NCBI RefSeq assembly: GCF_026914185.1
Contig: NC_070559.1
Coordinates: 5,687,501 to 5,751,500, forward strand
DNA from: Puccinia triticina
Lineage: Eukaryota; Basidiomycota; Pucciniomycetes; Pucciniales; Pucciniaceae
DNA length: 64,000 nucleotides
Direction of reading: 5' to 3'
Positions within the stretch are counted from its first letter, which is position 1. Each line of letters begins with the position of its first letter. A model generated the notes under the pieces. That model had not been told where the DNA came from. It saw only the letters and a list, made by a program, of their open reading frames with translations, and made no database searches. A program made the position numbers and the translations under genes. Positions 20,519 to 42,940 of this stretch are shown here, one piece after another.

Positions 20519-20546
20519 GCTGCAGCGAAGCCGCCTTGGCCTCTAG
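20519..20546 (+). other. Helitron 3' end (degenerate hairpin, CTAG|T)
   Basis: The sequence reads TGCAGCGAAGCCGCC then TTGGCCTCTAG, followed by T at 20547. It is the same terminus as HelA and HelB, with the hairpin weakened by loss of bases. The body of this Helitron lies to the left; its 5' end was not found. Confidence 0.7.
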
Positions 20547-21001
20547 TTAATACTTGAAGCATAGAGTCTAGACACTTGATTTCAAACCAATCTCCTCCCA
20601 ATTTAATATGGGAATAGTTGTGGCAGAAACATGCCACAATGATTCATCTAACATTTGGCTGAGCCTTTGAAGGTGCTAAATTTTACAAGTTTGCTTCATT
20701 ATGTGCATTTTTAATGAAAAAATCAGCTACACAAAATGTTCCTTGTCACTTGGTCAAGGATATGTTCCAGCATAAGGATACTTGGATTCTTGCCAACACA
20801 TGTTGTAAATTAAATTTCACATCCAGAATTGTGATCATGATGAACCAAACATATAATTATTTCAACAGAGAGATGTTCATGTGTTGAAATTGATTCACAG
20901 ATCAATCCACAACAACTTCACCTATAGTTATCCTTGCATTGAGAAAGAAATTGAACAAGAATTGCAATTCACATTGAGCTCACATCAGAACATTTGAATG
21001 A

Positions 21002-24000
21002 CTAGAGGCCAAGGCGGCTTCGCCGCTGCAAGCTGAAGGGGTTTGGTCTAGCAGCACATTGCAGATTATGTTTCCACAAATAGATTTGAGACTTGAGTTC
21101 TTCAAACTTAAGAAACTAACTCTGGCTTCAGATTGTAAGAGATCCTTATAAAGAAGGCCTGAATCAGGAGGGAGAATTGAAGGATTACATACCAACCAGA
21201 GACAGGAGAGTCTGGAGACTCAGAATTTCAAGATTAAACAGATTCTGATAAATCTTAAACATTATTATTCATTAGCAAGTGTTGGCAGAAAGAATACTTG
21301 AGATAAAGACTAATGTGTCACACTCAAGGACCATTTTAGTTGATAACTGATCATGTATTGCTTGTAAGTACAAAAAAAGTTGATATATATAGTAAATAAA
21401 TAAATTTTGAGCTGTGTTTGTACATAAATCATGCATTAGGGTGGAGAAGTGACAGGCCCACTGTCACCCTGGTGGGGTATTTGACAAATTTTTAAATGAC
21501 CAATAATATGGACACCCAAAGCATGTCTTCAAACTTCCCTGTTATCAATAATCAAAACTTAACTGGTGGAAAAAGGGCCCATAGTTGGTTTTTAAATTTC
21601 CATGGGCAAACTCAGCTCATTCTCCACCCCATTATCCATATATATGTTCATGGCAGAAGAAGTAATAAATAAACCCAGATTTAAAAATGTATGGCTGTCA
21701 AAGGATGAGCAACTCAACAATGCACAGTGATGGATTAGAAGAGGACATGAAATGAAATAGTGTATTTCAACAATATTTCATATGGGGCAAAACATATGCC
21801 TATCAAAATCAATCAGCATTGAATTTTCTCCCTTGGTTTAGACTGCATTATTCAAACCAGGTTGGATTTTTATTTTCAAAAAGAAAGTTTTCAGTAAAGC
21901 AGGGCCCTGTTCTCTCTGGACTCAATTTTTTTGAAACATTTATCCAAATTTGCACAAAAACTGCAGATTTGGTTTGTTGAATCAGTCATGCCAAACTGGG
22001 AGATTTCCATTACAACTGAGCAGGAATATACATGAGAGGAAGAAAAATATGAAAAAGAGTCTTCCTGTTGAACATGAAACATCTCCACACATTGATACAA
22101 TGGAAGTTTAATACTAAAGCTCAAGTACAGATGTTCATTGCAATAATTAGAGAGAAGAAAGGAAAATTAAAGAAAGCTGTGTGTGTGGCCTGGGCCTCCA
22201 GAATCTGCTCTTCAAAGGCCATGCCACTGGCGCTGAGGATGGAGGTGTGTCTCTGGGGGGCAATGTGGGTTATGGTGAGGGACAAAGCAACCAACCCGCA
22301 TGATGGCCCCCCAGCCCCCAAACACACTCAGCATGTTCCCCACAGATGCGTAGCCGCGCGCTCATTTCAAGGCAAAAACCAGCCAGTACATATTGGTCTT
22401 AGCAACCTTGATGAGCTTACGCACAAAAAAATGTGTGAGGGGTGTTCCAGTAGACGGCCCAAGGCACTGATGCCTAGCTCCCGGGCCTCCTTGAGCTCTT
22501 TGGGTAAGTGGCCCAGGATTGCCCAAGAGCTATAGCAATGGTGACTGCTAGCAAACCTCCCTTTGGCAAGCAGGCCGGGCCTGGGAGTTTGAAGTCGAGG
22601 AAGTGGCAAAAAGCAATCTATGATGACCGGCCGGAGGGAGACAATTCAGTGGAGGTTTAGAGACCATACGCGTTGGTGACTCAACGACTTCTTTGGGTTG
22701 CGGGGCCCCTGTGGCGGGCAACATGGCCGGACCAACACCGAGGTCGGCTGGAACTCTGAAGCCCACTCCATCTACCTTAGCTGGTGGTTTTTGGGAAGCC
22801 TTGAACGCTTTGGCCACTGTTTTGAAGGCTGATTTCAATAGTCTTGTGCCAAACCACTCGGTACGGGTTTATAACTGCCAGCTATGATCGATCTTTTCAG
22901 ATAATTCCTCCCCATTTACTTTTTTTCTCTCTTTGCGGGCGACTTGCCTGCAATCTTGGGCCTGGTGGCAAACAGTCCGTTTCTCAAGAACAACCACAAG
23001 CCTCCGCCACCCTGTCTGAGGGAATGGTCAGGTATGTTGGGTTCACATTGATAGGGAGAGGTTTGGGGGGAAAGAGAAACCAACTGATATCCAACTGCAG
23101 ACTTGGCAACGCCGACGGTGGTCAACACAAGGACTCATAGCGGCCATCAAACCCCCCGCATGCCACCCTTATATAGAATGATGACGCGGATCTTATATCA
23201 ATGGGGTCAAGGGTGGGGCAAGCGTAGCCGACGACGCCAGGGGAGCTGCATAGAACTGAATGGAGCCTGAGGCCGAGTCAGCCCGCCGAGCGCATGAACT
23301 CCGCTCACGTCGTCCGCCGCCGCTTCTGCCCTGTTTGACACTTGGGAGAACGTTCTTTTGACTATGCCGTCCAGTGGAGGTTATGGCTGAACTTGAAGCC
23401 AAGCAGAGTGAGTCTCTTGTTGTCATGGAAGAAGGCCGCATATCAGAATATCACACCTGGTGAGGACGGTAAAAAGAGGGATAATCTTGGTCCTGATAGG
23501 TATAAAAACACATACTTAATAGGTTTCAAGTTTCAAGGATTCAAGTCCGTAGAGCGCGAGGGAAATCAGAACCGTTGGCGGGGTCACTGACGATCTTGAG
23601 CAGCTGTGAGTAGTCCTGACTCATGCACTGTGGCGTAATTTCCGGGCAAAGGGATGATCTAGGCCAGTCAAAGTGTAGTCAAGAATGGTTGCAAGGCCCG
23701 CGGCGTGGGCTGTATGAAGTAGGCGAAGCCAAATGAATGCAGGAGTCAAGGGTATCCATTGGTCTCTCATCCGGATCTGAAGTGGCTGGCGCGGTTGGAA
23801 TGGAATCAGATACCGTTACGATGGCCACGGCGTGTCGTAGGCATAGGCAGGAGGAAATTTCTGGTGGCCTGGGGGTCTGAGAATTGAGTCGAGTGTTTGA
23901 GCCGAGAGCTTAAAAGGCAGGTAGTTGGGTGTTGAGCTGAATCCCCAGGCAATTGGAGATGCTGCACTTCCAGCTATCCGTTGTCCTCAACCCCTCCGCT

Positions 24001-24337
24001 GTTGCGCGTGCGCAGTCTGAGGGGCAAAGAGTGGGCCCCCCACGGGTCTGCAGCCTTTGCTGCGGGCCGGGGGCCTTCATGTCCATCACTTTTGACCCGT
24101 GTGCTTGACGTGGGCTGGGTGTTGAGCCTGTGGGCACGGCTTTGCCGCTGTTGGAAGGCTAGCTTGAAAACTTGCTTGTGTCTTTTTTGTGATGGGGAAA
24201 CCCAGCATTTTTTTTTGAGATTTTGTTAATGGGGAAACCCATGATTTTTTTCTTCTTCATTTTGTGTAATTGTAAGGGGAAACCCTTGATCTTGATTTTT
24301 TTGATTTTGTCAAAACTGTGTCTTGAATAAACTTGGA
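21002..24337 (-). mobile_element. HelA copy 1: 3.3-kb non-autonomous Helitron
   Basis: The element runs on the minus strand from TCCAAGTTTATT (24337) to a hairpin GCGGC-GAA-GCCGC followed by CTTGGCCTCTAG (21002). The flanking bases are A on the 5' side and T on the 3' side, as for Helitron insertion between A and T. The 5' region has three GGGTTTCCCC motifs. It encodes no helicase, so transposition needs a partner such as HelB, which shares both termini. The interior is partly GC-rich with small open frames, likely captured host fragments that I cannot identify. It matches 39604-42940 almost perfectly in inverse orientation. Confidence 0.88.
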
Positions 24338-25846
24338 TATCTCAACTTGCAATGGGGATGAATTCATGATATTGGTACCATAATGATGGGAAAATTTGAA
24401 AGATTAATTTAGGAAGGCTTTTTTCCAATGAAAATCTCCCAATGTAGCAGCCCCATTTAATCAGTCAGGAACTATTGCCTCATTTTTTGTGTTTCTGCCA
24501 TTATATCTCAACCAGGAATGTTGATTATTCCATGTTATTGGTACCAGAATGTTCATCCATTTGTAAAGAGTATTTTGGTGTAGCTTTCATGGATTAAAAT
24601 CGCAAAAACGAGCGGCTAAAGTCTGATTAGTTTCAAAATATTGCCTAATTGGGTGTTTTTTTGGTGTTTCTGCCACTGTATCTGAACAGGGCTAACATTT
24701 ATTTCATGATATTGATACTATTATAATAAGAGATGGTGAGAGATTAATTTGGGTCAGCTCTTGACCATGAAATTCCCAAAATGAGGCAGCTACAGTCTCA
24801 TGAGTTTCAAAATATCACCAAATTGGGCTTTTCTTTCTGTTTCCGCCACCATATCTCAACTGGGAATGGTGATTATTTCATGATGCTGCTACCAAAATGT
24901 TCATTCATTTCCAAAGATTATTTTGGTTTAGCTTTCATGTATGGAAATGCCCAAAAGGAGCTGCTATAGTCTGATTAGTCTCAAAATATTGCCTAATTGG
25001 GTATGTTTTGGTGTTTCTTCCACTGTATCTCAACCCGCAATGGGAATGATTTCATGATATTAATACAATTATGATAAGACATATTGAGAGATTAATTTGG
25101 GTCAGCTCTTGACCATGAAATTCCCAAAATGAGGCAGCTACAGTCTCTTGAGTCTCAGAATATCACCAAATTGGGCTTTTCTTTCTGTTTCTGCCACCAT
25201 ATCTCAACCGGGAATGGTGATAATTTCATGATATTGGTACCAAAATTTTCATTCATTTTCCAAAGATTATTTTGGTTTAGCTTTCATGTATGGAAGTGCC
25301 CAAAAGGAGATGCTATAGTCTGATCAGTCTCCAAATATTGCCTAATTGGGTTTCTTCTGGGGTTTCTGCTACTGTATCTTAACCCGCAATGCAAATGATT
25401 TCATGATCTTGATACCATTATTATAAGAAATGTTGAGAGGTTAATTTTGGTCAGCTCTTGACCATGAAAATCCCAAAATGAGGTAGCCACAGTCTCATGA
25501 GTCTCACAATATTACCAAATTGGGGTTTTCTTTGTGTTTCTGCCACTATATCTCAACTGGGAATGCTGATTATTTCATGATATTGGGACCATTATATTCA
25601 TCTATTTGCAAAGATTATTTTGGTATAGCTTTCATGTATGGAAATGCCCCAAAGGAGCTGCTATAGTCTGATTAGTCTCAAGATATTGCCTAATTGGGTA
25701 TCTTTTGGTGTTTCTGCCACTTTATCTCAACCCGCAATGGGAATGATTTCATGCTATTGATATCATTAGAACAAGGGATGTTGAGAGAGTAATTTGGGTC
25801 ATCTCTTGACCATGAAAATGCCAAAATGTGGCAGCTACAGTCTCAT
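24338..25846 (-). repeat. Dimeric satellite array, arm 1 (part of X)
   Basis: About 8.7 half-monomers of ~174 bp alternate between two types, giving a ~348-bp dimer. The marker GTTTCTGCCAC-TATCTCAAC recurs near 24497, 24663, 24837, 25011, 25185, 25359, 25534 and 25707. The orientation is opposite to that of the array to the right. Confidence 0.9.
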
Positions 25847-25885
25847 TTGGTGATATTTTGAGACTCATGAGACTGTAGCTGCCTC
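25830..25885. repeat. Turning point of the satellite palindrome
   Basis: GGCAGCTACAGTCTCAT ending at 25846 and its reverse complement starting at 25867 flank a 20-bp spacer. Satellite units run outward from here in opposite directions, making a long inverted repeat with homology of at least 1.5 kb per arm. Confidence 0.85.
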
Positions 25886-25982
25886 CTTTTGGGATTTTCA
25901 TCGTCAAGAGCTGACCCAAATTAATCTCTCAACATGTCTTATTACAATGGTATTAATATCACGAAATAAATGTTATCCCCGG

Positions 25983-26780
25983 TGTGGTGCCCCATTTGGT
26001 TTTCCGCTAGTCAGAAGCATTCCTGCCGCCACCAGCCTTGATCAGCGAGATCCCCAGCAAGTAGCAAGACCTACAATCACCCCTCAAGAGTCTCTTCCAT
26101 CCTCAAGACTTCAAGACCCTCAAGATTTCATCCCCAAGGCTTCAATAATTCACTCCTCAAGACCTCTCAATCTCAAGATTTACCTCATTCCCTCTCATCC
26201 CCAAACCCTCTCTCTTCAAGATCCTTTCCTCCCCCCCCTTTCTTTCTTCTTTTTCCTAGTTGTTGTTCTTTGTTTCCTTTCTCAGTTTTATTTTCTCCTG
26301 TCCTCCCCTGTTTGTTTGTTTATTTCTCCTCTTGCGCGGGTTGGTAGGTTTCAGAGTGGAGGGTTGGTTTTGTTTTGTGTTTTGTTTTGTTTTGTCTTTG
26401 AAGTTTGCGGGCATCATGACAGGTCCGCTAGATGTCACAAACCCCAGACTCTGAGTTCAGCCCAAACTCAGAGGATGGGGCGGCATGAACTCGGTACTGA
26501 TCCAAGTCAGAAATTCATCAAACCTTATTGATCCTGATCCTTCCTCATCTTCCCTGAGCTTCCCTTGATCCCTTTTCCTGATCACTTTGCCGGCAGTATC
26601 CCCGGCCCTCTTCTCAAACACCTCAACCGCCGATGCGCGCTCAACGCCGTCGTAAAATACCCTTTTACCTCTTCGCTTACACGATCCTCATCACTTTTCC
26701 GGACCACCCACGAGGGCAGCCTCAAAAGCACACATCCCCTCGACGCTCTGCCTACCGCCTGGCACGGTAGGAGTTCCACA
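25983..26780 (+). repeat. G2 5' LTR
   Basis: A 798-bp direct repeat with TG...CA ends, identical to 29547-30344 except for two substitutions near its start. It contains long pyrimidine-rich and T/G-rich stretches, and its small ORFs are low-complexity. Confidence 0.94.
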
Positions 26781-26782
26781 TT

Positions 26783-26835
26783 TGGTCCCCCGAGCCGGGA
26801 TCGAACCAGCGACCTCAAGATTTACAGTCTCGCCG
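26783..26835 (+). other. Extended tRNA-Tyr(GUA) primer-binding site
   Basis: Starting 2 bp after the LTR, the sequence is the reverse complement of a tRNA 3' half. In order it carries TGG (complement of the CCA tail), a discriminator, 7 nt of acceptor stem, a full T-arm with TTCGATC loop, a 5-nt variable loop, and a complete anticodon arm with loop CTGTAAA, meaning anticodon GTA. The tRNA-like match ends at about 26832-26835. All stems pair when read on the minus strand. The untemplated CCA and the absence of an intron show it derives from a mature spliced tRNA rather than a tRNA gene. Confidence 0.88.
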
Positions 26836-26954
26836 ATTTTTGGACGGTTCAAGACGCTTGGCGGTCTTCTTTCTTGCTTTCTTTGTCTTAGGTGATTTTT
26901 CCTGGACGGATCCGAGTCTTTGATTTTTTTTTTTTGGGTGTGTTCAGTAGTGGA

Positions 26955-27090
26955 GGCACAGGGAGCTAGAAGTAAGTCCTCCCCAACAGTGCACCTCCGC
27001 GGGTTGTCTACGCTTTTTTTGTCGAAGCATTACGATCGCCACGCTCGTGAGCCACTCGGATCTGTTTGCTCTCTTCTTTAGGGGCTAGTC
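26955..27090 (+). repeat. Intron-like segment upstream of G2 gag (copy 1)
   Basis: This has GAAGTAAGTCC (good 5' splice site) ... GCACCT--GGGT ... CTCGTGAGCCA ... TTTGCTCTCTTCTTTAG (good 3' splice site). The same series recurs after gag at 29345-29490, so a leader intron appears duplicated on both sides of the ORF. Confidence 0.65.
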
Positions 27091-27098
27091 AATCTTTC

Positions 27099-29378
27099 AT
27101 GGTGGCCGCAATTCGTCCAGCTCCGATCGAAGTCGACTATCAAGATCTAGCGCTGGATTTTGACGGCGCAAATGTCAAAAGTTTTTTGGATGCGTATGAG
27201 ACGATGGCCAAAAGGCACGGCACCTCGGAATACAATATGTCCTGGAAGATTTCGTTTTTCATCCGTTCAGACGAAGTCTTTGGGGTAATAAAAAGATTCG
27301 ACGGATTCAAACATCGCAGATGGTCAGATCTGAAAGTGTCGATGCTCGCGTACTGGGGACAAGCTGAAACCCCTCGCCTCCCTCTTCAAGAACTGGAAGA
27401 ATTGCTAGAATCTTGGTCAGCGAGAGAATACATCTATTGGCCGCGAGATTATCCGATTTTTTGGCAATCATTCGAGCCGATTGCTTCATATGTACTCCAG
27501 AACGAAGGCTGGAACTCGCAAGACATCCACGATCTTTGCTCTCAAGCCTTTTTCTGGGTCTGCCGACGATCTCTGGCTGCTCGCTTTCCCTCTTCAGCGC
27601 AAGAAAACAAGACCTGGTTTTTTGATTGTCGTGCTGCAACAGAGTTTATCGATGATGACACGGACACCGAGCTGGATTCCTCTGAACAATCTGTTGAAGA
27701 TCCGAATCACACCAAAGCGGATTCCACTAGACGGCTCTCCTTTTCTGGTCAGGTCGCTTCCTCGTCTCTTGCTGAAGGATATCCATCTGCTCTTGCCCTA
27801 GAATCTCGCGAAGAGACCAAGCCGGGCGAATCTTGTTCTATAAATTCTCTTTTGGGCTCTTGTTTTGTCGAACAACCTAAGCTGCCAGCCCTCGATTTGG
27901 ATAAAGCATACAAAGACTGCAAGCTGGATCCTGCTGAACAATTAATGGAAGAGTCGAATTGCGCGGAAGTTCCTTCGCCATCCGAGGAGTTTTCTTTCCC
28001 CCACCCTATAGTCCTTAGCCCGGTCGAGGAGTCCACTCGTATGGCCCTGGAGTCTGAAGAAGAGCATTGGAGCGCTATTCCCGAGTCTTCCAAGCACTCA
28101 ACACGAGCTATCCAGTCCCTTAGATCACCCAGTCCTGAATCTGAGGTCGTAGAGAAGATGAAAGTGGAGCCAAGTTTGAAGGAAGTGATCTCCGCCTCTG
28201 CCGTCAATCTCACTGTCCGGCCGCCACTCGTATGTTACTATTGCCACCACAGAGGTCACCGACTTAGCCGCTGCCTCAATCTTCAGAGAGACAGGAAGGA
28301 TGCGCTGGTCAAACAGAAGGGAAAAAGTCTTTTCCTTCCCAGTGGCGCTAAAATATCCTTTGATTCTAGCCGCCCTATCCGCCGCATTGTCATCTCTTTT
28401 CAATTCGACTCTGCAAAAGTTTTTGGGCGGAGGAGTAAGGCGCTGCCCAGTTCCCGTTCATACCATTGTTTCCCAATCAGAAGACCTGCCAGTCCCGCCC
28501 CGTCCGACTCCCGCTCTCCGCTGTGTTCTGTTCGATCTGCACAGGCGGTGGATCAAGTGCTTAAGAAGATTGCCAATCTGATTGTTCCTGGCTTTTCTGC
28601 CTCTACCCTTGTTTCTCCAAGTGGATCAGATCCTTCTCATGCTCCTAGCCTCCGAGAAGAGGTTAAACTAGGTCCCAGCTCTCCTCCGCTTCCGACTCCC
28701 GATCTGCGTTTTAGTTGCCAACTCCGCCAGATGGCGGAGCAGTTGATCCCATCTTCCGGCCTCCGAGACGAGGTTAAACTATGTTCTCCTTCCCATTCGA
28801 CTCCGATTCCCAACCTCTGTTCTAGTCTTCAGCCCCGCCAGATGGCGGAGCATGCGATTCCGATCTCCAATCTCTGTTCTAGTAACCAGCTCCGCCAGGT
28901 GGCGGAGCTTCTGATTCCACCGTCAAACCTCCGAGAAGAGGTTAAACTACATCCCTGTTCTTCTCCGCTTCCAATTCTCGATCCGCGTTCTAGTAGCCAA
29001 CTCCGCCAGGCGGCCAAGCATCCGATTCCGCTTCCTCGCCTCCGAGATGAGGTTAAACTACCCCCTTTTCTATCTAGCATTTCAGAGTCGCCCCGGGCGC
29101 TTGATGATGCCGTTCTGTTCCCACACTTCGATCCTCATTACTCAAAGACCTCAGACTCCTCTTCTTCAATCCCTCCTTCGCCTCAAACCCCTGCTTTGAC
29201 TCCAGATCCGTTATCGCCGCTCATTTCAACACGCTCCAATCTTCACATCCTGATCCCAGCTCGGCCTCAATTCTCTGACTCAACCTTTTCCAATCATTCC
29301 GATCTGACGGCTTCAAGGCCTTCCCATTTGGGTTGTTCTGGTGGGGTATTGCAGACCAGAAGTAAGTCCCCTTCTTAA
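27099..29378 (+). CDS. gag: Gag protein of G2, with CCHC zinc knuckle
   Basis: The first ATG (27099) gives 759 codons; the frame is open upstream to 27066 but enters a probable intron. Residues ~10-190 form the capsid-like domain (FLDAYETMAKRHGTSEYN, WKISFFIRSDEVFGVIKRF, WSDLKVSMLAYWGQ). A CCHC knuckle, CYYCHHRGHRLSRC, is at residues 379-392 and should bind the element's RNA. The C-terminus is Ser/Pro-rich with four to five repeats of a LR(E/D)EVKL ... QLRQMAE block. There is no protease or polymerase. The last codons run into a GTAAGT donor (29362), so splicing to a short final exon near 29482 is possible. Function in particle assembly is inferred from family features. Confidence 0.85.
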   Translation: MVAAIRPAPIEVDYQDLALDFDGANVKSFLDAYETMAKRHGTSEYNMSWKISFFIRSDEVFGVIKRFDGFKHRRWSDLKVSMLAYWGQAETPRLPLQELEELLESWSAREYIYWPRDYPIFWQSFEPIASYVLQNEGWNSQDIHDLCSQAFFWVCRRSLAARFPSSAQENKTWFFDCRAATEFIDDDTDTELDSSEQSVEDPNHTKADSTRRLSFSGQVASSSLAEGYPSALALESREETKPGESCSINSLLGSCFVEQPKLPALDLDKAYKDCKLDPAEQLMEESNCAEVPSPSEEFSFPHPIVLSPVEESTRMALESEEEHWSAIPESSKHSTRAIQSLRSPSPESEVVEKMKVEPSLKEVISASAVNLTVRPPLVCYYCHHRGHRLSRCLNLQRDRKDALVKQKGKSLFLPSGAKISFDSSRPIRRIVISFQFDSAKVFGRRSKALPSSRSYHCFPIRRPASPAPSDSRSPLCSVRSAQAVDQVLKKIANLIVPGFSASTLVSPSGSDPSHAPSLREEVKLGPSSPPLPTPDLRFSCQLRQMAEQLIPSSGLRDEVKLCSPSHSTPIPNLCSSLQPRQMAEHAIPISNLCSSNQLRQVAELLIPPSNLREEVKLHPCSSPLPILDPRSSSQLRQAAKHPIPLPRLRDEVKLPPFLSSISESPRALDDAVLFPHFDPHYSKTSDSSSSIPPSPQTPALTPDPLSPLISTRSNLHILIPARPQFSDSTFSNHSDLTASRPSHLGCSGGVLQTRSKSPS
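28650..29060 (+). repeat. Coding tandem repeat in G2 gag
   Basis: CTCCGAGA-GAGGTTAAACTA occurs near 28659, 28760, 28928 and 29039. GCCAGATGGCGGAGC-type blocks lie between. The spacing varies by multiples of about 55 bp, so copies were gained or lost while the frame was kept. Confidence 0.75.
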
Positions 29379-29490
29379 GTATGCACCTTGGGTAGATACT
29401 ACCGTCATCTTGTAAGCTCTACTCTAGCCACACTCGTGAGCCATCCGCGGGATCCCGTTTTGCTTTTCTTTTTTTTTTCAGATCTCTCTC
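29345..29490 (+). repeat. Intron-like segment downstream of G2 gag (copy 2)
   Basis: GAAGTAAGTCC (29358) ... ATGCACCTTGGGTAGA ... CTCGTGAGCCATCC ... TTTTGCTTTTC then T-run and CAG (29481). It is a diverged copy of 26955-27090. It may be an intron removed near the 3' end of the transcript, or debris of the event that placed gag there. Confidence 0.6.
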
Positions 29491-29546
29491 TCCAGCCGCA
29501 AGAAGTTTCAAAGGAGTTTGGGGACAGACTCCAAGTGGTGGGTGGA

Positions 29547-30344
29547 TGTGGTGCCCCATTTGGTTTTCCGCTAGTCAGAAGCATTCCCGCCCCCACCAGC
29601 CTTGATCAGCGAGATCCCCAGCAAGTAGCAAGACCTACAATCACCCCTCAAGAGTCTCTTCCATCCTCAAGACTTCAAGACCCTCAAGATTTCATCCCCA
29701 AGGCTTCAATAATTCACTCCTCAAGACCTCTCAATCTCAAGATTTACCTCATTCCCTCTCATCCCCAAACCCTCTCTCTTCAAGATCCTTTCCTCCCCCC
29801 CCTTTCTTTCTTCTTTTTCCTAGTTGTTGTTCTTTGTTTCCTTTCTCAGTTTTATTTTCTCCTGTCCTCCCCTGTTTGTTTGTTTATTTCTCCTCTTGCG
29901 CGGGTTGGTAGGTTTCAGAGTGGAGGGTTGGTTTTGTTTTGTGTTTTGTTTTGTTTTGTCTTTGAAGTTTGCGGGCATCATGACAGGTCCGCTAGATGTC
30001 ACAAACCCCAGACTCTGAGTTCAGCCCAAACTCAGAGGATGGGGCGGCATGAACTCGGTACTGATCCAAGTCAGAAATTCATCAAACCTTATTGATCCTG
30101 ATCCTTCCTCATCTTCCCTGAGCTTCCCTTGATCCCTTTTCCTGATCACTTTGCCGGCAGTATCCCCGGCCCTCTTCTCAAACACCTCAACCGCCGATGC
30201 GCGCTCAACGCCGTCGTAAAATACCCTTTTACCTCTTCGCTTACACGATCCTCATCACTTTTCCGGACCACCCACGAGGGCAGCCTCAAAAGCACACATC
30301 CCCTCGACGCTCTGCCTACCGCCTGGCACGGTAGGAGTTCCACA
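29547..30344 (+). repeat. G2 3' LTR
   Basis: A 798-bp copy of 25983-26780 preceded by a purine-rich tract and followed by the CCGG target duplication. Confidence 0.94.
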
Positions 30345-33300
30345 CCGGTTCAGATACCGTGGCAGAAACACCACAATATACCCAATTAGGCAATGTTTTG
30401 AGACTAATTAGACTATAGCAGCTCCTTTTTGGGATTTCAATTCATGAACTCTAAACCAAAAGAATCCTTGGATCAATATTCTGGTACCAATAGCATGAAA
30501 TGATCACCATTCCTGGTTGAGAAATAGTGGCAGAAACACAAAGAAAAGCACAATTTGGGGCTATTTTGAGACTCATGAGACCGTAGCTGCCTCATTTTGG
30601 GATTTTCCCTGTCAAGAACTGGCACAATTTAATCTCTCCACATTTCTTATTATAATGGTATCATTATCATGAAATCACTCCCATGGCGGGTTGAGATGCA
30701 GTAGCAGAAACACCCAAAAAACCCAATTAGGCAATATTTTGAGACTAATCAGACTATACCAGTTGCTTTTGGGAATTTCCATCCATGAAAGCTATACCAA
30801 AATAATCTTTGGAAATGGATGAATATTCTGGTCCCATTATCATGAAATAATCACCGTTCCCGGTTGAGATATAGTGGCAGAAACACAAAGAAAACCACAA
30901 TTTGGTGATATTTTTAGACTCATGAGAATGTAGCTGCCACATTTTGGGATTTCCATGGTCAGGAGCTGACCCAAAGCAATCCCTCAACCTATCTTATCAT
31001 ATTGCTATCAACATCATGAAATCATTCCCATTGGGGGGTTGAGATACATTGGCAGAAACACCAAAAAAGTCCCAATTAGGTGATATTTTGAGACTAATCA
31101 GACTATAGCAGCTCCTTTTGTGCATTTCCATACATGAAAGCTATACCCAAATAATCATTGGAAATTTATCAATATTCTGGTACCAATATCATGAAATGAT
31201 GACCATTCATGGTTGAGATATGGTGGCAGAAACAGAAAGAAAAGGCCAATTTGGTAATATTTCAAGACTCATGAGACTGCAACTGCCAGTTTTTCATGCG
31301 CAAGAGCTGACCCAAATTAATCTCTCAAAAGCTCCTATCATAACGTTATCAATATCATGAAATCATTCCCATTGCGGGTTGAGATACAGTGGCAGAAACA
31401 CCAAAAAATACCCAATTAAGCAATATTTTGAGACTAATCAGACTATAGCAGTTGCTTTGTGTATTTCCATCCATGAAAGCTATACCAACATAATCTATGC
31501 AAATGGATGAATATTCTGGTACCAATATCATGAAATAATCAAAATTCTTGGTTGAGATATGGTGGCAGAAACACAAAGAAAACCCCAATTTGGTGATATT
31601 TTGAGACCCATGAGACTGTAGCTGTGACATTTTGGGTTTTTCATGGGCAAGAGCTGACCCAAATTAATTTCTCAAAATCTCTTATAATGGTATCAATATC
31701 ATGAAATCATTCCCATTGCGGGTTGAGATACAGTGGCAGAAACACCAAAACATACCCAATTAGGCAATAATTTGAGACTAATCAGACTATAGCAGCTCCT
31801 TTTGGGAATTTCCATACATGAAAGCTATACCAAAATAATCTTTGCAAATGGATGAATATTCTGGTACCCATATCATGAAATAATCACCATTCCCGGTTGA
31901 GATATGGTGGCAGAAACAGAAAGAAAAGCCCAATTTGGTGATATTTTGAGACTCATGAGACTGTAGCTGCCTCATTTTGGGAATTTCATGGGCAAGAGCT
32001 GACCCAAATTAATCTCTCAATATTTCTTATCATGAAGGTATAAACATCATGAAATCATTCCCATGGCGGGGTTGAGATACAGTGGCAGAAACACCATAAA
32101 ATTTGATATTTTGAGACTAATCGGACTACAGCAGCTCCTTTTGGGCATTTCCATACATGAAAGCTATACCAAAATAATCTTTGGAGATGGATGAATATTC
32201 TGTTCTCAATATCATGATATAATCACCATTCCCGGTTATGATATAGTGGCAGAAACGCAAAGAAAACCCCAGTTCGGTGATATTTTGAGACTCATGAGAA
32301 TGTAGCTGCCACATTTTGGGATTTCCATGGTAAAGAGCTGACCCAAAGTAATCCCGCAACATGTCTTATCATAATGGTATCAATATCATGAAATCATTTG
32401 CATTGCAGGTTGATATACAGTGGCAGAAACACCAAAAAATACCCAATTAGGCAATATTTTGAGACTAATCAGACTACAGCAGCTCCTTTTGGGAATTTCC
32501 ATACATGAAAGCTATACCAAAATAATCTTTGCACATGGATGAATATTCTGGTACCAATATCATGAAATAAGCACCATTCCCAGTTGAGATATGGTGGCAG
32601 AAACACAAAGAAAAGCCCAATTTGGTGATATTTTGATACCCATGAGACTGTAGCTGCCTCATTTTGGGAATTTCATGGTCAAGAGCTGACCAAAATTAAT
32701 CAATCAATATGTCTTATCATAATGGTATCAATATCATGAAATTATTCCCATTGCGGGTTGAGAAACAGTGGCAGAAACACCAAAAAATACCCAATTAGGC
32801 AATATTTTGAGACTAATCAGACTATAGCAGCTCCTTTTGGGCATTTTCACACATGAACTCTAAACCAAAATAATCTTCGGAAATGTATCAACATTCTCGT
32901 ACCAATATCATGAAATGATCACTATTCCTGGTTGAGATATAGTGGCAGAAACACAAAGAAAAACCTAATTTGGTGATTCTCTGAAACCCATGAGACTGTA
33001 GCTGCCACATTTTGGGTTTTTCATGGTCAAGAGCTGACCCAAATTGATCCCTCAACATTTATTATCATGATGATATCAATATCATGAAATAAATGTTAGC
33101 CCCAGTTCAGATACAGTGGCAGAAACACCAAAAATACCCAATTAGGCAATATTTTGAGACTAATTAGACTATAGCAGCTCCTTTTGGGCATTTTCATACA
33201 TGAAAGCTATACCAAAATAATCTTTGAAAATTGATGAATATTCTGGTCCCAATATGATGAATTAAGCACCATTCCAGGTTGAGATATAGTGGCAGAAACA

Positions 33301-34146
33301 AAAAGAAAACCCCAATTTGGTGATATTTTGAGACTCACCACAATGTAGCTGCCACATTTTGCGTTTTTTCATGGTGAAGAGCTGACCCAAATTAATCTCT
33401 CAATATCACTTATCATAATGGTATCAATATCATGGAATCATTCCCATTGCGGGTTGAGATACAGTGGCAGAAACACCAAAAAATACCCAATTAGGCAATA
33501 CTTTGAGACTAATCAGACTATAGCAGCCCCTTTTGGGCATTTCCATACATGAAAGCTATACATATTTATTTTTTGGAAATGGATGAATATTCTGGTACCA
33601 ATATCATGAAATAATCACCATTCCAGGTTGAGATATAGTGGCAGAAACAGAAAGAAAAGCCCAATTAGGTGATAATTTGAGACTCATGAGACTGTAGCTG
33701 CCTCATTTTGCCATTGTCATGGTCAAGAGCTGACCCAAATTAATCTCTCAACATCTCTTATTATAATAGTATCAATATCATGAAATAAATGTTAGGCCTG
33801 GTTCAGATACAGTGGCAGAAACACCAAAAAAACACCCAATTAGGCAATATTTTGAAACTAATCAGACTTTAGCCGCTTGGTTTTGGGATTTTAATCCATG
33901 AAAGCTAGACCAAAATACTCTTTGCAAATGGATGAACATTCTGGTACCAATATCATGGAATAATCAACATTCCTAGTTGAGATATAATGGCAGAAACACA
34001 AAAAATGAGGCAATAGTTCCTGACTGATCAAATGGGGCTGCTACATTGGGAGATTTTCATTGGAAAAAAGCCTTCCTAAATTAATATTTCAAAATTTCCC
34101 ATCATGACGGTACCAATATCATGAATTCATCCCCATTGCTAGTTGA

Positions 34147-34718
34147 TGGGGAAACACCTCCCATTTGTCTTTGATTGAACAAAAGACGCAAAAGACACCT
34201 TACTCAAATCTGGTACAAACGTTAAATCAATCTCAGGCCTAGTAGAAATTTAGGATATTGGATATGATGAGTCACATATAAAAGCCATTAAATTTGAACA
34301 AAATTGATGTAGTGTGATATATTGAGACTGATTGGTTTTTCTTTTTTTTTTCCTTTTTCTTGGAAAGTAGATTTCAACACTTCTGCAAGGTTCAAGTGAT
34401 AATAGTTCATGCCTCCCCATTCCCCCTCCCCCCTCCCCCTCCCTGCCTGACTTAACAGACTATTTTTCTCAGGAATAATTCATACGAGTATGCAAAAATG
34501 ACCTATTTGATCTGGCAACAAAATGAAGCTTTTACTATGGTCAAAAACTAAGACAGGGGGAAATCAAGAGAAAGAGAGATGATAGAAGGGTTATGATGTT
34601 GCAGGAAGGAAAAAAATTGAAGAGAAATTTCAAAAAAAAAAAATGATCAATATAATTTGATCAATATATGCCATATTGATCAATATATGCCTTCTCAAAT
34701 TCATCCATGTTTGTAGTG
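34147..34718 (+). mobile_element. X terminus, copy 1
   Basis: This 572-bp segment ends CATCCATGTTTGTAGTG. It matches 43264-44089 once the MITE in the latter is removed. The outermost bases give a CACTAC terminal inverted repeat, typical of the CACTA superfamily. A palindrome (ATATTGATCAATAT) lies about 40 bp inside. It abuts the HelB helicase N-terminus at 34719. Short A/T homopolymers and a C-rich CCCCTCCC run occur inside. No transposase is present. Confidence 0.85.
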
Positions 34719-35201
34719 TGAACACGTTAATTCCGTATTGGCCTTGAACGGAAGGATCTATGTTCGCGCCTAATGAGGTAAACGAAACTTCATTGTTGTA
34801 CATCCGTATGAGGGATTGAAAATCTAAACAGTCTGGTAAACCAAAAGTCATAAGTCGCGGATCGATCATCAGGTTGGCGCGAGCATACCTTGATCCTTTT
34901 TGATGAGCAGCCTTCGTAGGAATTCGGGATACCTCCGTGCTGAGCTGTCGACAAAAGGTATTGTTACCTTGTTCTTTTGACAACACATAGTATATAACAC
35001 GTTCTTTTTGCCTCGGTTGACTATTGCAGCTTCATCGGTCCAATGACGAGCCAAACATCCTTCACACTTTTTATTACACGGGCCAAGGTTGTGAGGAACG
35101 CTAAACATCGGGCAATTCTGGTGGGAAGCTTCCCAGCCTGGTGACGTGCTATTGAGAACTTTTCCCTTTGTTTCGATCATTGGGCTGAAGCAAAGTATCA
35201 A
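34719..35201 (-). pseudogene. Helitron helicase (RepHel), N-terminal part
   Basis: The Helitron N-terminal zinc-finger-like region is clear: PHNLGPCNKKCEGCLARHW, then a CCQKNKVTIP block, and after an intron YNNEVSFTSLGANID. The intron is 34824-34888 (GTATGC...TTTAG, 65 bp); splicing joins LLIKKDQ to DFQSL in frame. The exon ends at Val-Phe, where X begins. The next codons of the family motif are found at 44090 on the other strand. The start codon is uncertain. The gene encoded the replicase that nicks and unwinds DNA for rolling-circle transposition. Confidence 0.85.
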
Positions 35202-37225
35202 TCACTTGTCAGCTTGGTCACGAAGGGTAAAAGTTGAAGTTGGGCACATGTATCACTTACGCTAAGGATTTTTGAATACTAATGAAAATGGATGATAAAA
35301 GTCACTGCGAATAATTTTTAGCGCTGCATAAAGAGAAGGGGGGGAATCGGTTATGTCAAATATCAAGTACCAAGTCGAATCAGGTGAGAACTTGATCTAA
35401 GTCGGAGGAAGCATTGATCTTTGATGGCGGCTAAGATAAAACTCAAATGGCGGGGTGCGAATCAAAGGTCCAGCATTTGTTCACGTAATTTCGTCAGTCC
35501 GTTTTGCCAGATTATTGTCCGGGTCATTTCAACTGTTGTTTTATTAATTTACTATTAGTCTTGCTGGTCGTGCACGGGATGATTAGTCATGTTTGAAAGG
35601 GTCGTGGCTGACGTTGTTAAACCTGAGTGAGGAGTCTTCCGATCACTCAGGTCGGGCATGCCAATGAGATTCGGGTATTGATTTGGCGATGGGGGATATG
35701 ATGATATGTTCTCCTCCAGGAGTACCCAGGTGATCTGCTCACGCCGATAGAAGTCCCATATCGAGCGAACTCTGGTTCACACATTGGCAAGATGCGCTTC
35801 GCTGGTAATCAGGATGTGTCCAATTGACGTGCCAAAGGCCTGCAAGCACAATGAATCAAGCCTCTCATAGATTATTGGCTCAAACGCGGGGTGCAAATGG
35901 AAGGTGAAACATTTGTTCACGTAATTTGATTATTAGGTCGGCTCAAACGTGATTATTTATAATAACTGGGCCAAGTTGTTTGTTAGGAGAGGACGGAAGA
36001 AAAGAGGCTTGGTGTGTTGTTGTGGCCGAGCTAAGTTGATACGGGCTGGGTGTAGGGTTTGCTGAGGGTCGAGGCGTTTTCAATTGGTTGTAACTCGTGG
36101 CTGGACTGGTTGGGTTTGTCGAGGAACGGGCGGGGGCAAGCCCAGGGTCTAACGCCTCGTGATTGGACGGGCTGGGTGTAGGTTGGGCGATACTGTCAAG
36201 GTTTTGTATTGCTTCGAACTCGGGGCTCAACCGGTTGAGTTTCTCCAGCAGCGGGCCGAGGCAAGCTAAGGGTCTGACGCCTTGTAACGTGGAGACCGTT
36301 GACATTGAAGGTAAACACAGAGTCGTGGTTGGGAGCGGGTCGCAGATAATAAAGACTTGGTTTTGGGAACTGTAACGTCCGAGCAGGGTGCGTTGTGTCG
36401 AGGGTCAGGATTGAATCAATAGTTGTTTGGCGTGTCGGTTGGGAGGGTTCCTCCTGCAATGGATGCATATGCGAGTTGTTAGAGAAACACAATCGGTTAT
36501 TTTAGGAATCACGGGGCTAAAATGTGAATTGCGTACGGAAGGGTCTGGCATGATTGTTTCATCGTTAAGATGGATCAGGAAGCCGACTGCAACAGGATTA
36601 CGGTTATGCTGTGAGCTCGTAGTCGTTAATCAGAGAAGATGTGATGAGGTGGCTTACCCAGCGGCCGTTGTGAGGGTTGCGTTGGCTGCTTGGGGCGCAA
36701 TGGGCCAACGGTTGTCTTCGTTTGCGGTGCCAAGGGCATAGAATGCGAGTCGTGGAGGATTTGGTTTGGAGCAAGCAGTGGCTGGTGGTGATGGGTATAA
36801 GTAGAGCGCTGAAGATGAGTTTAGGTCGCCTCAGGCAATTTCCCGCTGTATTTCCAGCGGGTGGTTGCCTCACCCCCGTCCGCTGTTGCATTTGCGCGGT
36901 CCAGCGGGGATTATTCGTGGGCCCCCCTTGTGCTTGAGGGCTGGGGGTCCTCAACCCAACACTTTTTGACCCTGCTAGACAGGGATGGGCGTTGGGCCAC
37001 GGTGCGTCAGCTAGCTGCGCTAGGTGGTTGGTTGCGGCGTGCAGTTTGTACTGTTGTGTTAAAATGTTGTGATTTTTTGCAATATTCTTGTATAAATGAC
37101 CTCAAATTTGGTCCTGCAGAACTGTAGAAGGGGAAACCCATGAATTTTTTTTTTGTAATTGTGCAATTTCTAGGGGGAACCCTTGATTTTTTTTTCTATG
37201 AACCTGAAGCTTTAATATACTTGGA
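34719..37225 (-). mobile_element. HelB, 5' part (inverted relative to the rest)
   Basis: Read on the minus strand it begins TCCAAGTATATTAAAG at 37225, preceded by A, like HelA. Two GGGTT(T/C)CCCC motifs and a GC-rich zone resembling HelA's 5' region follow. The stretch 36954-35210 has Pro/Ser-rich minus-strand frames (for example 36305-35943) that could be an N-terminal extension or leader. The helicase N-terminus then begins. The element is cut at 34718 by X and resumes at 44090 on the plus strand. Confidence 0.85.
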
Positions 37226-37688
37226 TGAGAAATCAATATACAATTAAGAACAAAAGAACAAAAGTACCTCTATAAAGAATTATTATGTATATATATATGT
37301 GAGAGTGTGTGTGTGAAAAGCTTCCCAAAATCGTCTAAGATAATAAGATTAAAGAAACGGTATAAGGACAAACCACAAAGTAGAGAATCTGTGGCTGGTA
37401 GAGGAGTAAGGAAGATGTCGAAGTAAGAGAAGACAGCCCATATATGTATATATATATATATATATGTAAATTTTTGAAGATCTAAAAAAGATTTATGGAC
37501 ATTATAAGCTAAGATAGTCATGCAATTGCCAGTAGTAGAAGTATGAGTCATAGGAAAAGGCATGAAAGTGGGAGGGGGGAAATCAACAACATAGCCGATG
37601 GAAGGTAAGATTTTCCGGCAGAAGAAGTAAATGAACTGTGCAGGAGAGAGAATTTATATGGAATGAAAGGGGGGGAAGGGTGTGTGGT
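37226..37688. other. 3' flank of the cyclase exons, with microsatellites
   Basis: It is non-coding and AT-rich. (AT)n/(GT)n tracts occur at 37284-37316 and 37441-37467. In the pre-inversion order this is the sequence just left of HelB's insertion point and probably the 3' untranslated region of the cyclase exons. Confidence 0.5.
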
Positions 37689-38599
37689 TCAGAACAAGCC
37701 GGCGGCATTGGACGCGAGGCCAAACGATTCCAGCGCATGTAGGAGCACGTTAGGCTGGATCTTAACGGTGTCGCCGAGGGCCGACAGAAAGTCATAGATG
37801 GGGCCGAGGGAGCATAACTCAAGGCTCGAGATGACGGTTTTGATCCAGATCACCTGGTTTTCGAGGATCGCGGCGAGCTCTTCGTCGGTGGACTCCAGCC
37901 GGATCGGGTAGGTCAGCAGATGGCCGTTCAGGAGCTTTGATTTTGGCCGCTTCGGCGCGCTCCCTCCGCTCCCGCCTGCTCCTCCGCCCTCTTCTCCCCC
38001 GGGACAGGCTGTCAGTTTGTTCGTCGGGTTTGGCGAGCTGGGGCTGAAACTTAAGGGCGCATGGACCGTCGCTGCGGACACTGTGACGATTTGGGTCCAA
38101 GAAGGGACGTTTTCAATCTCCTTAAAATCTTACATAATAAGAATCGCTTGGGGAAAAGGAGGAAGGGAGAGAGGGCGTACCAGCCTCGAGTCTGACGACC
38201 AATGCAGCCAACTGTCTGATGGGATTGACGTCCAGCATCCTCGGGGCCGGTTCATAGACTTCATCGACCTTGGAGTCGGGCCCACCGAACAAGGTGCCTT
38301 GGTTGTTGAGTCTTCCGGCCAACAAGCACGGATAGATCAGCAAGATGAACTCGGGCATCTCCAGGCCTTTCAGCCGCTTCTCGCCGATCTCAGAGACCCC
38401 AAAGCCCATCTTGCGGATCAATGCCACATCTCGGCGTGTTGCTGGGTCCACGATCACATCCGTTTCGTGAGCTAGTGGATCGCTGCCTTCAAGTTCTTTC
38501 CCGTCGTTCTGATCAAAACACAGCGTCTTCACAATCTTGATCACGTCTGGAGAGGCCTTAATTTCTCCGCTTTTGGCTACGCCACTAATCCTTGCTGTT
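37689..38599 (-). pseudogene. Adenylate cyclase C-terminal exons (remnant)
   Basis: Exon 38181-38599 follows an AG acceptor and begins with TARISGVAKSGEI, then has KMGFGVSEIGEKRLKGLE and PEFILLIYPCLLAGRL, all characteristic of the end of the class III cyclase domain in fungal adenylate cyclases. The intron 38129-38180 (52 bp, GTACGC...GTAAG) leads to a second exon ending at 37689-37691. That C-terminal ~140 residues corresponds to the region that binds the cyclase-associated protein in yeast. The upstream exons of this normally very large protein are absent to 39603. It may be a gene truncated by transposons or a Helitron-captured piece. No stop interrupts the two exons. Confidence 0.65.
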
Positions 38600-39361
38600 C
38601 TAATGTTCCAAATGGGAGAAACCCCAGGGGCATTGGTTTCGTCCTAACCCCTCCCTGGAGCGCCCTAATCACTTGATTAGGCCCTCCTTGCAAAACAAAA
38701 CCAACCGGCCCCTATTTGCTTGTTGCTGCGGCACGGCTGGAGGGTCGTCCATAGGACTTCTGAAGTCTTTGGGGACATTTCAACAGACTGCGGGTGTATT
38801 TAGTCTATGTAGGGGCCTCTTAAAAAAATTGTAATAGAAATACGCCAAAACTTAGATCTAAGTTTCCACAATTGTGTGGATTTAGGAAACTTGGATATGT
38901 AGTATGTAGATATTTTTTTGTTGGGGGAATGGAGAATGAGTTGATTTCAAGATTAATACATGAGCACCTTGAAGATTCAAATTTGACATGAAGGCAACAA
39001 ACAATGCAACTTGTAAATTGGAATATCTTCCACAGTCATTTGAATGGAAATGGGGATTCAGAAGCAGTGTTGGCAAAGCCCTAGATGTGTTGTGAGTAGC
39101 TAGAGGTTTACTGAGTATATATGGTGGCAATTTTCAGGGTGTTCTTTGGACACCACAGGTGTGTTGGCAGAAACCTTAGATTTAATGAAATGTTTTCTTT
39201 GAATTTCCAGTGTGCTTTGGACACCTTGTAGAGGATGTAATATGTGCTTGCGTGATCTTGGTCAAGTAGCACTTTGATATTGATATGTCTTGCGTGGTGG
39301 ATTTAGTGGGCATTGGAGGAGTGATTTAAACCAGGGGTGGAGCAGCTGAACCATGTGTTTG
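38600..39361. other. Unassigned sequence upstream of the cyclase exons
   Basis: No further cyclase coding was seen. A perfect palindrome, CCTAATCA-CT-TGATTAGG, lies at 38664-38681. The remainder is AT-rich and leads into a Helitron 3' end. Confidence 0.45.
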
Positions 39362-39388
39362 CAGCGGCAAAGCCACCTTGGCCTCTAG
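39362..39388 (+). other. Helitron 3' end (HelC)
   Basis: GCAGCGGCAAAGCCACC then TTGGCCTCTAG, followed by T. The hairpin has one mismatch. The 5' end of this Helitron was not located; it could include the cyclase exons or lie left of the inversion. Confidence 0.72.
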
Positions 39389-39603
39389 TATAAATAAAAT
39401 GCCCACAGCCAGGCTATGTTCACGCCTACACACCAGGATACTCCCATATGGAGAAAAGGACGTAGTGGTTGGGCCCACAGAAGTCACCTCTATAAATAGA
39501 GGCCTATTTGGCCCTCAGTAAAAGATCCCCCAGACCAGTCACCACCCATAAACACCTGGGGGGATTTGTGGCACTGTCTAGGGAGTTCCAGACCGTAATT
39601 TCA
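39389..39603. other. Spacer between HelC end and HelA copy 2
   Basis: A 215-bp stretch with CTATAAATAGAGGCC (TATA-like, 39491) and no coding. It ends in A, the 5' insertion base of HelA. Confidence 0.4.
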
Positions 39604-42600
39604 TCCAAGTTTATTAAAGACACAGTTTTGACAAAATCAAAAAAATCAAGATCAAGGGTTTCCCCTTACAATTACACAAAATGAAGAAGAAAAAAATCAT
39701 GGGTTTCCCCATTAACAAAATCTCAAAAAAAAAATGCTGGGTTTCCCCATCACAAAAAAGACACAAGCAAGTTTTCAAGCTAGCCTTCCAACAGCGGCAA
39801 AGCCGTGCCCACAGGCTCAACACCCAGCCCACGTCAAGCACACGGGTCAAAAGTGATGGACATGAAGGCCCCCGGCCCGCAGCAAAGGCTGCAGACCCGT
39901 GGGGGGCCCACTCTTTGCCCCTCAGACTGCGCACGCGCAACAGCGGAGGGGTTGAGGACAACGGATAGCTGGAAGTGCAGCATCTCCAATTGCCTGGGGA
40001 TTCAGCTCAACACCCAACTACCTGCCTTTTAAGCTCTCGGCTCAAACACTCGACTCAATTCTCAGACCCCCAGGCCACCAGAAATTTCCTCCTGCCTATG
40101 CCTACGACACGCCGTGGCCATCGTAACGGTATCTGATTCCATTCCAACCGCGCCAGCCACTTCAGATCCGGATGAGAGACCAATGGATACCCTTGACTCC
40201 TGCATTCATTTGGCTTCGCCTACTTCATACAGCCCACGCCGCGGGCCTTGCAACCATTCTTGACTACACTTTGACTGGCCTAGATCATCCCTTTGCCCGG
40301 AAATTACGCCACAGTGCATGAGTCAGGACTACTCACAGCTGCTCAAGATCGTCAGTGACCCCGCCAACGGTTCTGATTTCCCTCGCGCTCTACGGACTTG
40401 AATCCTTGAAACTTGAAACCTATTAAGTATGTGTTTTTATACCTATCAGGACCAAGATTATCCCTCTTTTTACCGTCCTCACCAGGTGTGATATTCTGAT
40501 ATGCGGCCTTCTTCCATGACAACAAGAGACTCACTCTGCTTGGCTTCAAGTTCAGCCATAACCTCCACTGGACGGCATAGTCAAAAGAACGTTCTCCCAA
40601 GTGTCAAACAGGGCAGAAGCGGCGGCGGACGACGTGAGCGGAGTTCATGCGCTCGGCGGGCTGACTCGGCCTCAGGCTCCATTCAGTTCTATGCAGCTCC
40701 CCTGGCGTCGTCGGCTACGCTTGCCCCACCCTTGACCCCATTGATATAAGATCCGCGTCATCATTCTATATAAGGGTGGCATGCGGGGGGTTTGATGGCC
40801 GCTATGAGTCCTTGTGTTGACCACCGTCGGCGTTGCCAAGTCTGCAGTTGGATATCAGTTGGTTTCTCTTTCCCCCCAAACCTCTCCCTATCAATGTGAA
40901 CCCAACATACCTGACCATTCCCTCAGACAGGGTGGCGGAGGCTTGTGGTTGTTCTTGAGAAACGGACTGTTTGCCACCAGGCCCAAGATTGCAGGCAAGT
41001 CGCCCGCAAAGAGAGAAAAAAAGTAAATGGGGAGGAATTATCTGAAAAGATCGATCATAGCTGGCAGTTATAAACCCGTACCGAGTGGTTTGGCACAAGA
41101 CTATTGAAATCAGCCTTCAAAACAGTGGCCAAAGCGTTCAAGGCTTCCCAAAAACCACCAGCTAAGGTAGATGGAGTGGGCTTCAGAGTTCCAGCCGACC
41201 TCGGTGTTGGTCCGGCCATGTTGCCCGCCACAGGGGCCCCGCAACCCAAAGAAGTCGTTGAGTCACCAACGCGTATGGTCTCTAAACCTCCACTGAATTG
41301 TCTCCCTCCGGCCGGTCATCATAGATTGCTTTTTGCCACTTCCTCGACTTCAAACTCCCAGGCCCGGCCTGCTTGCCAAAGGGAGGTTTGCTAGCAGTCA
41401 CCATTGCTATAGCTCTTGGGCAATCCTGGGCCACTTACCCAAAGAGCTCAAGGAGGCCCGGGAGCTAGGCATCAGTGCCTTGGGCCGTCTACTGGAACAC
41501 CCCTCACACATTTTTTTGTGCGTAAGCTCATCAAGGTTGCTAAGACCAATATGTACTGGCTGGTTTTTGCCTTGAAATGAGCGCGCGGCTACGCATCTGT
41601 GGGGAACATGCTGAGTGTGTTTGGGGGCTGGGGGGCCATCATGCGGGTTGGTTGCTTTGTCCCTCACCATAACCCACATTGCCCCCCAGAGACACACCTC
41701 CATCCTCAGCGCCAGTGGCATGGCCTTTGAAGAGCAGATTCTGGAGGCCCAGGCCACACACACAGCTTTCTTTAATTTTCCTTTCTTCTCTCTAATTATT
41801 GCAATGAACATCTGTACTTGAGCTTTAGTATTAAACTTCCATTGTATCAATGTGTGGAGATGTTTCATGTTCAACAGGAAGACTCTTTTTCATATTTTTC
41901 TTCCTCTCATGTATATTCCTGCTCAGTTGTAATGGAAATCTCCCAGTTTGGCATGACTGATTCAACAAACCAAATCTGCAGTTTTTGTGCAAATTTGGAT
42001 AAATGTTTCAAAAAAATTGAGTCCAGAGAGAACAGGGCCCTGCTTTACTGAAAACTTTCTTTTTGAAAATAAAAATCCAACCTGGTTTGAATAATGCAGT
42101 CTAAACCAAGGGAGAAAATTCAATGCTGATTGATTTTGATAGGCATATGTTTTGCCCCATATGAAATATTGTTGAAATACACTATTTCATTTCATGTCCT
42201 CTTCTAATCCATCACTGTGCATTGTTGAGTTGCTCATCCTTTGACAGCCATACATTTTTAAATCTGGGTTTATTTATTACTTCTTCTGCCATGAACATAT
42301 ATATGGATAATGGGGTGAAGAATGAGCTGAGTTTGCCCATGGAAATTTAAAAACCAACTATGGGCCCTTTTTCCACCAGTTAAGTTTTGATTATTGATAA
42401 CAGGGAAGTTTGAAGACATGCTTTGGGTGTCCATATTATTGGTCATTTAAAAATTTGTCAAATACCCCACCAGGGTGACAGTGGGCCTGTCACTTCTCCA
42501 CCCTAATGCATGATTTATGTACAAACACAGCTCAAAATTTATTTATTTACTATATATATCAACTTTTTTTGTACTTACAAGCAATACATGATCAGTTATC

Positions 42601-42940
42601 AACTAAAATGGTCCTTGAGTGTGACACATTAGTCTTTATCTCAAGTATTCTTTCTGCCAACACTTGCTAATGAATAATAATGTTTAAGATTTATCAGAAT
42701 CTGTTTAATCTTGAAATTCTGAGTCTCCAGACTCTCCTGTCTCTGGTTGGTATGTAATCCTTCAATTCTCCCTCCTGATTCAGGCCTTCTTTATAAGGAT
42801 CTCTTACAATCTGAAGCCAGAGTTAGTTTCTTAAGTTTGAAGAACTCAAGTCTCAAATCTATTTGTGGAAACATAATCTGCAATGTGCTGCTAGACCAAA
42901 CCCCTTCAGCTTGCAGCGGCGAAGCCGCCTTGGCCTCTAG
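39604..42940 (+). mobile_element. HelA copy 2: 3.3-kb non-autonomous Helitron
   Basis: Runs TCCAAGTTTATTAAAG (39604) to GCAGCGGCGAAGCCGCC-TTGGCCTCTAG (42940), with A before and T after. It is the inverted duplicate of 21002-24337, with only a handful of differences seen (for example one base near 42317, one in the 5' 15 bp, one homopolymer length). Internal landmarks: GGGTTTCCCC three times near 39660-39750, a TATATAAGG box near 40769, and GC-rich open frames 40500-41600 of unknown origin, probably captured exons. No Rep or helicase domain. Confidence 0.88.

Follow-up and report, generated by a model that had tools for sequence, protein, structure and literature searches.

In Puccinia triticina, a 15,266-base segment of a mobile-element nest lies between two near-identical, inverted Helitrons, which we call HelA, and was most probably turned round by a crossover between them. 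The segment was studied in a 64,000-nucleotide stretch (C2:5687501-5751500, hereafter the window, to which all coordinates refer unless a contig is named) of a single haploid assembly of 122,823,596 bases in 18 contigs. Using paralogs from the same assembly as outgroups, with no sequences joined, we find that at each of four independent junctions relatives of the interrupted repeats have the flipped order, and two of these junctions are HelA empty sites that are restored only by the flip. This supports the original prediction, made from the letters of the window, which had proposed an inversion by recombination between inverted Helitrons on the strength of three broken junctions.

The nest occupies 20.5-56 kb of the window and holds the two HelA copies, a larger Helitron (HelB), an element with CACTA-like ends (X), a long terminal repeat (LTR) retroelement and other repeat pieces. 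The features on which the inversion turns are:

21002-24337, minus strand: HelA arm 1, a non-autonomous-looking Helitron with TC...CTAG ends, inserted between A and T
24338-39603: inverted segment, whose ends in relatives run on into 42941 and 21001, respectively
39604-42940, plus strand: HelA arm 2, 99.9% identical to arm 1 and inverted

The HelA arms

The arms are nearly identical and inverted, as had been proposed. Alignment of arm 1 with the reverse complement of arm 2 gave two substitutions (39616 and 42318) over 3336/3337 bases, and the sole indel is of one base, in an A-run at 39725. The BLAST match between them (21001-24338 against 42941-39603) takes in HelA and one shared A/T target base at each end. 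HelA has the termini TCCAAG...CTAG, so that the 5′ TC and the 3′ CTRR ends are both present. The empty sites of both arms, and the flanks of the two other complete copies in the genome (L003 and L004), which have the same TC...CTAG ends, show that it inserts between A and T and makes no target duplication. When folded with a DNA model, its 3′ end gives a hairpin with a 5-bp stem 12 bases from the terminus, a fold that 95 of 200 shuffles equal or better; for the corresponding hairpin of HelB, 42 of 200 shuffles do so. HelA is called non-autonomous-looking because its frame at 22053-22532, the only HelA frame scanned, gave no Pfam match and no Rep or helicase.

The arms were aligned with six further copies, namely L003, L004 and four partial ones. 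Across 3334 columns with at least two other copies represented, 16 variants are common to both arms and found in none of the six, and the arms differ from each other at two positions, compared with 36 of 3335 between them and the nearest complete copy. These variants make each arm the closest relative of the other, which may reflect a recent local copy, gene conversion or an origin in one step, as considered below. Separately, one HelA copy on C10 is apparently split at position 395, its pieces (C10:5271143-5271537 and C10:5320457-5323404) standing ~49 kb apart and the second of them lying next to a Helitron-type end.

Repeat Y and the first HelA empty site

The left side of arm 1 and the right end of the inverted segment are parts of one repeat, Y:

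20547-21001, plus strand: main part of Y, left of arm 1, stopping exactly at the arm
39552-39603, minus strand: final ~52 bases of Y, now 18.6 kb off and inverted

Repeat Y is dispersed, with 20576-21001 or slightly more matched at many places in the genome and base 21001 reached by the match at 23 places outside the window. Seven of these were fetched for alignment across the junction, and in all seven Y carries on beyond 21001 with the stretch that starts at 39603 and is read on the opposite strand, ending ~52 bases further on. The register is exact in six copies (36-41 of 51 bases, ungapped), and in L069 the continuation follows a 12-base gap. The continuation scores 36-63 compared with 8-14 for the present neighbours at 24338 and 42941, and in each of the seven copies 0 of 1000 shuffles reach its score. 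This indicates that one Helitron, HelA 1, entered a Y copy whose last 52 bases now lie away from the rest. The fit of 21001 to 39603 is a junction additional to the three of the original prediction.

Two observations concern Y itself. Just to its left, at 20520-20546, stands a Helitron-type 3′ end (...CTTGGCCTCTAG then T, with CTAG at 20546). In C11:2108084-2318787 there are ten Y matches on one strand, spaced ~20.7-24.9 kb, a pattern that suggests large units arrayed in tandem.

Element X and the second HelA empty site

The other junction that the flip restores as a HelA empty site falls inside X, of which the following parts were recognised:

34147-34718, minus strand: left terminal repeat of X (CACTACAAAC...), 92.6-96.2% identical to 43264-44089
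43264-44089, plus strand: right terminal repeat of X, enlarged by a 248-base insertion (43657-43904) in comparison with other copies
34719-34721, minus strand: left target duplication of X, TCA on the minus strand
44090-44092, plus strand: right target duplication of X, TCA
24338-25844, minus strand: right-hand array of the X satellite (174/348-base), cut at 24338 by the second Helitron, HelA 2, and resuming at 42941
42941-43263, plus strand: remainder of that satellite, beside the right terminal repeat
25845-34146, plus strand: left-hand array of the X satellite, in opposite orientation, with the LTR retroelement inside
25983-30344: LTR retroelement within the X satellite, its LTRs 99.75% identical, with CCGG on both sides

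Scoring 40 of 588 candidates in the search for X, those of the window included, gave 20 loci, 19 of them outside the window. The satellite unit is present in 13 of these 19, and in all 13 the sequence is continuous and base-exact from 24338 to 42941, 24338-24482 being matched as its reverse complement up to the base that adjoins the match to 42941-43263. Of the 30 bases flanking the junction to either side, 26-30 are identical on one and 28-30 on the other, and in L058 and L065 the total is 60 of 60. The remaining six loci (L050, L062, L063, L064, L066 and L067) lack the unit and are uninformative for the junction. The contiguity of the satellite in its relatives indicates that HelA 2 entered the X satellite, and the proposal that the unit at 24338 continues at 42941 is borne out to the base.

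The termini of X tell of the same flip. CACTA-type transposons have terminal repeats that begin with CACTA and make 3-bp target duplications. Matching 3-bp duplications occur in all three of the X terminal pairs examined, which are that of the window (TCA), C17:1469410-1482562 (TAG/TAG, 13.2 kb apart) and C13:2520778-2579548 (TAA/TAA, 58.8 kb apart), and those of the window match only when the segment is flipped. The X termini thereby become the proper inverted pair that had been expected of them, TCA adjoining each side. By these termini and duplications X is CACTA-ended. The 174/348-base satellite begins directly inside its terminal repeats and switches orientation at ~25845, so that X resembles a fold-back element whose arms are made of satellite. 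The 248-base insertion in its right terminal repeat has inverted ends of ~43 bases.

HelB and its empty site

HelB lies on both sides of arm 2, with a flank inside and a flank outside the inverted segment:

34719-37225, minus strand: 5′ part of HelB, starting TCCAAG... at 37225 with A before it, a 5′ end common to many places in the genome
44090-55756, plus strand: main part of HelB, ending ...CTTGGCCTCTAG then T, with further insertions inside
44864-45322: Helitron Rep-type N domain in HelB (PF14214, Pfam E 6.1e-38)
47515-48840: PIF1 helicase in HelB (PF05970, Pfam E 7.1e-57), in a frame separate from that of PF14214
37226-38614, minus strand: 5′ flank of HelB, inside the inverted segment
55757-55974, plus strand: 3′ flank of HelB, outside the inverted segment

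In the window HelB is split at 34720/44091, and its two pieces adjoin in both of the paralogs in which both sides were found, among 40 of 769 and 40 of 731 candidates scored. On C7 the end of the 5′ piece and the start of the main piece are the same base, 1369506; on C3 a gap of 14 bases separates the pieces, against 15 query bases left unaligned, so that they are in register. The claim that the 5′ part of HelB becomes collinear with its main part after the flip thus agrees with both paralogs. One detail of the original prediction needs adjusting: X proper ends at 34718 and 44089, and 34719-34721 and 44090-44092 are target bases.

A site free of HelB is found on C12, where the 5′ flank (37226-38614; 94.2% identity over 1389 bases) runs directly into the 3′ flank (55757-55974; 95.4% over 218 bases). 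This adjacency of 37226 and 55757 holds in the one copy that reaches the junction; L031 and L032 match both flanks and stop short of it. It too is a junction additional to those originally proposed.

Controls and other features of the window

The adjacencies of the present order, 21001/24338 and 39603/42941, were found by BLAST 0 times in 68 loci outside the window, in which the junction-reaching matches for the four pieces number 7, 62, 3 and 36, so that the test of 39603/42941 has little power. A control HelA copy that gives no cause for suspicion, C9:3817043, has flanks that are collinear in a paralog: at C9:1356186, 15 of 15 bases of its other flank follow, partly a T-run, and after them another repeat begins. 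The divergence between the LTRs of the retroelement (2 in 798) and that between the arms (2 in 3336) do not differ significantly (Fisher p 0.17).

Within the inverted segment, six of the 13 stop-to-stop frames of at least 120 residues were scanned and gave no Pfam match. Elsewhere in the window, a direct repeat of 920 bases, 99.3% identical, occupies 2880-3799 and 9486-10405, and a frame of copia-type reverse transcriptase (2036-2935) overlaps the region before its first copy.

Discussion

The assembly and its paralogs directly show the nest of elements, the inverted orientation of the arms, the exchange of their flanks and the ancestral order. The simplest reading of these is a crossover between the arms, after the nest had been built in several steps. 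As the nesting indicates, HelB had gone into a dispersed repeat and X into HelB; HelA 1 had entered the copy of Y, and HelA 2, in opposite orientation, the satellite of X, which also received the LTR element. Non-allelic homologous recombination between the HelA copies, within one chromosome or between sister chromatids, would then have inverted the 15,266 bases and swapped the HelA flanks, so that the flip would be the last among the events that involve HelA. The exchange of the flanks of both HelA copies places both breakpoints within HelA, as we infer, and marks the two insertions as genuine separate sites. Recombination between the satellite arrays of X was rejected as the cause of the flip, since it is at the HelA ends that the breakpoints lie.

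Several points weigh against a crossover between pre-existing copies. The evidence comes from one haploid assembly, so an assembly flip across a 3.3-kb inverted repeat is possible. The private differences of the arms amount to one substitution each and the homopolymer indel, and the arms are thus too alike for a test of chimerism. With random insertion of eight copies, the expectation of two HelA copies within 18.6 kb is ~0.0085, so that gene conversion, local transposition or an origin in one step is required to explain the pair. Counted by BLAST alone, the 21001/39603 adjacency occurs 1 time, because only three short matches to the 51-base piece reached the junction, and the result there rests on the direct alignments. 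Finally, around a second control copy, L004 on C14, no relative reaches the junction on either side.

An artefact of assembly is unlikely, though it is the alternative that fares best. Here the ancestral order would persist in the chromosome, and the 15 kb between the 3.3-kb inverted repeats would have been turned by the assembler or scaffolder. Inverted arms that are 99.9% identical are the layout in which such flips arise, and the ancestral order is wholly intact but for the flip. However, the long reads described for leaf rust in the available text of one report are ~10-25 kb (PMC8957140) and would easily span 3.3 kb, if the assembly was built from such reads. The inverted order is taken here as probably real.

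It is also quite improbable that the inversion arose in one step, with a single HelA in Y being copied into the X satellite while strand transfer inverted the DNA between, which implies no intermediate with two HelA copies in the old order. Such an event would leave a footprint identical to that of a crossover. Consistent with it, the arms are mutually closest (16 shared variants, and 2 differences against 36 to the next full-length copy), and so close a pair is improbable under random placement; however, gene conversion or a recent local hop explains the identity of the arms equally well. Helitrons transpose through a single strand by a rolling-circle process, during which the donor duplex stays unbroken; this speaks against a one-step origin. 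A model of hybrid insertion, as outlined in the accessible part of the Galileo work, does predict identical copies with exchanged flanks (PMC2775673), but no such inversion by a Helitron was found in the accessible text of the literature on Helitrons and inversions, ectopic recombination or breakpoints. If the inversion did arise in this way, rolling-circle transposition would have a new outcome, namely flank-exchanged inversions that need no later crossover.

Two further explanations were rejected as very improbable. Had the inversion come from a staggered break, with one HelA duplicated at the second breakpoint, each breakpoint would be left with an inverted duplicate and the near-identity of the arms would be accounted for, but the duplicate would have to span the Helitron from end to end, the duplicated stretch being exactly HelA plus the target base, and such a break would give neither the clean A/T Helitron target observed at 21001/39603 within Y nor the two separate empty sites that were both found. 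Separate insertions or translocations of the HelB, X, satellite and Y fragments might be thought of because every piece belongs to a dispersed repeat family, yet one flip makes four junctions match base-exactly or nearly so, with 0 of 1000 shuffles for each of seven Y copies and 13 of 13 copies for X.

A crossover between HelA copies would be an event of a kind already known. The transposon Galileo made inversion 2z3 of Drosophila buzzatii, for which the accessible text gives three marks, namely copies in opposite orientation, exchanged flanks and chimeric copies (PMC2775673). As in 2z3, one transposon is present here as two opposite copies at the breakpoints, with exchanged target flanks (PMC2775673). 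As far as that text goes, the two cases differ in that Galileo makes 7-bp target duplications and the HelA arms have none, in that the non-inverted chromosome was sequenced for Galileo whereas the old order is read here from paralogs in the same genome, and in that the Galileo copies are demonstrably chimeric whereas the HelA arms are too alike to tell; the HelA inversion is also only 15 kb, unlike 2z3 (PMC2775673). Helitrons have been reported in or near the breakpoint regions of fly and mosquito inversions, as here, but in the accessible parts of those reports they are neighbours or enriched families, with no flank exchange of a Helitron pair shown (PMC2775673, PMC11122324). Inversions of Atlantic cod, attributed to inverted, tandemly arranged miniature inverted-repeat transposable elements, share ectopic recombination between inverted transposons, but they involve another transposon class and far larger rearrangements, and the available text mentions Helitrons 0 times (PMC12368964). 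In a fungus, the FoHeli elements of Fusarium oxysporum resemble those described here as Helitrons with nested insertions and non-autonomous forms, but as far as the available text describes them they have Helitron2-like ends and T/A insertion, whereas HelA and HelB have TC...CTAG ends and A/T insertion (PMC5148889). No flank-exchanged inversion between two Helitrons was found in the accessible text of the literature searched, outside which most subscription journals lie; the Helitron arms and the proof from a single genome are what is new.

No host function is required by the inversion, and its effect is probably neutral. One haploid assembly is enough to reveal an inversion, its ancestral order and both of its breakpoints when relatives of the repeats that it interrupted serve as outgroups, and the exact coordinates let long reads and other haplotypes separate a crossover, a one-step transposition and an assembly error. 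With arms of 3.3 kb at 99.9% identity only 15 kb apart, the segment should be able to flip both ways. Helitrons, which make no target duplication, join the transposons for which there is flank-exchange evidence for inversion.

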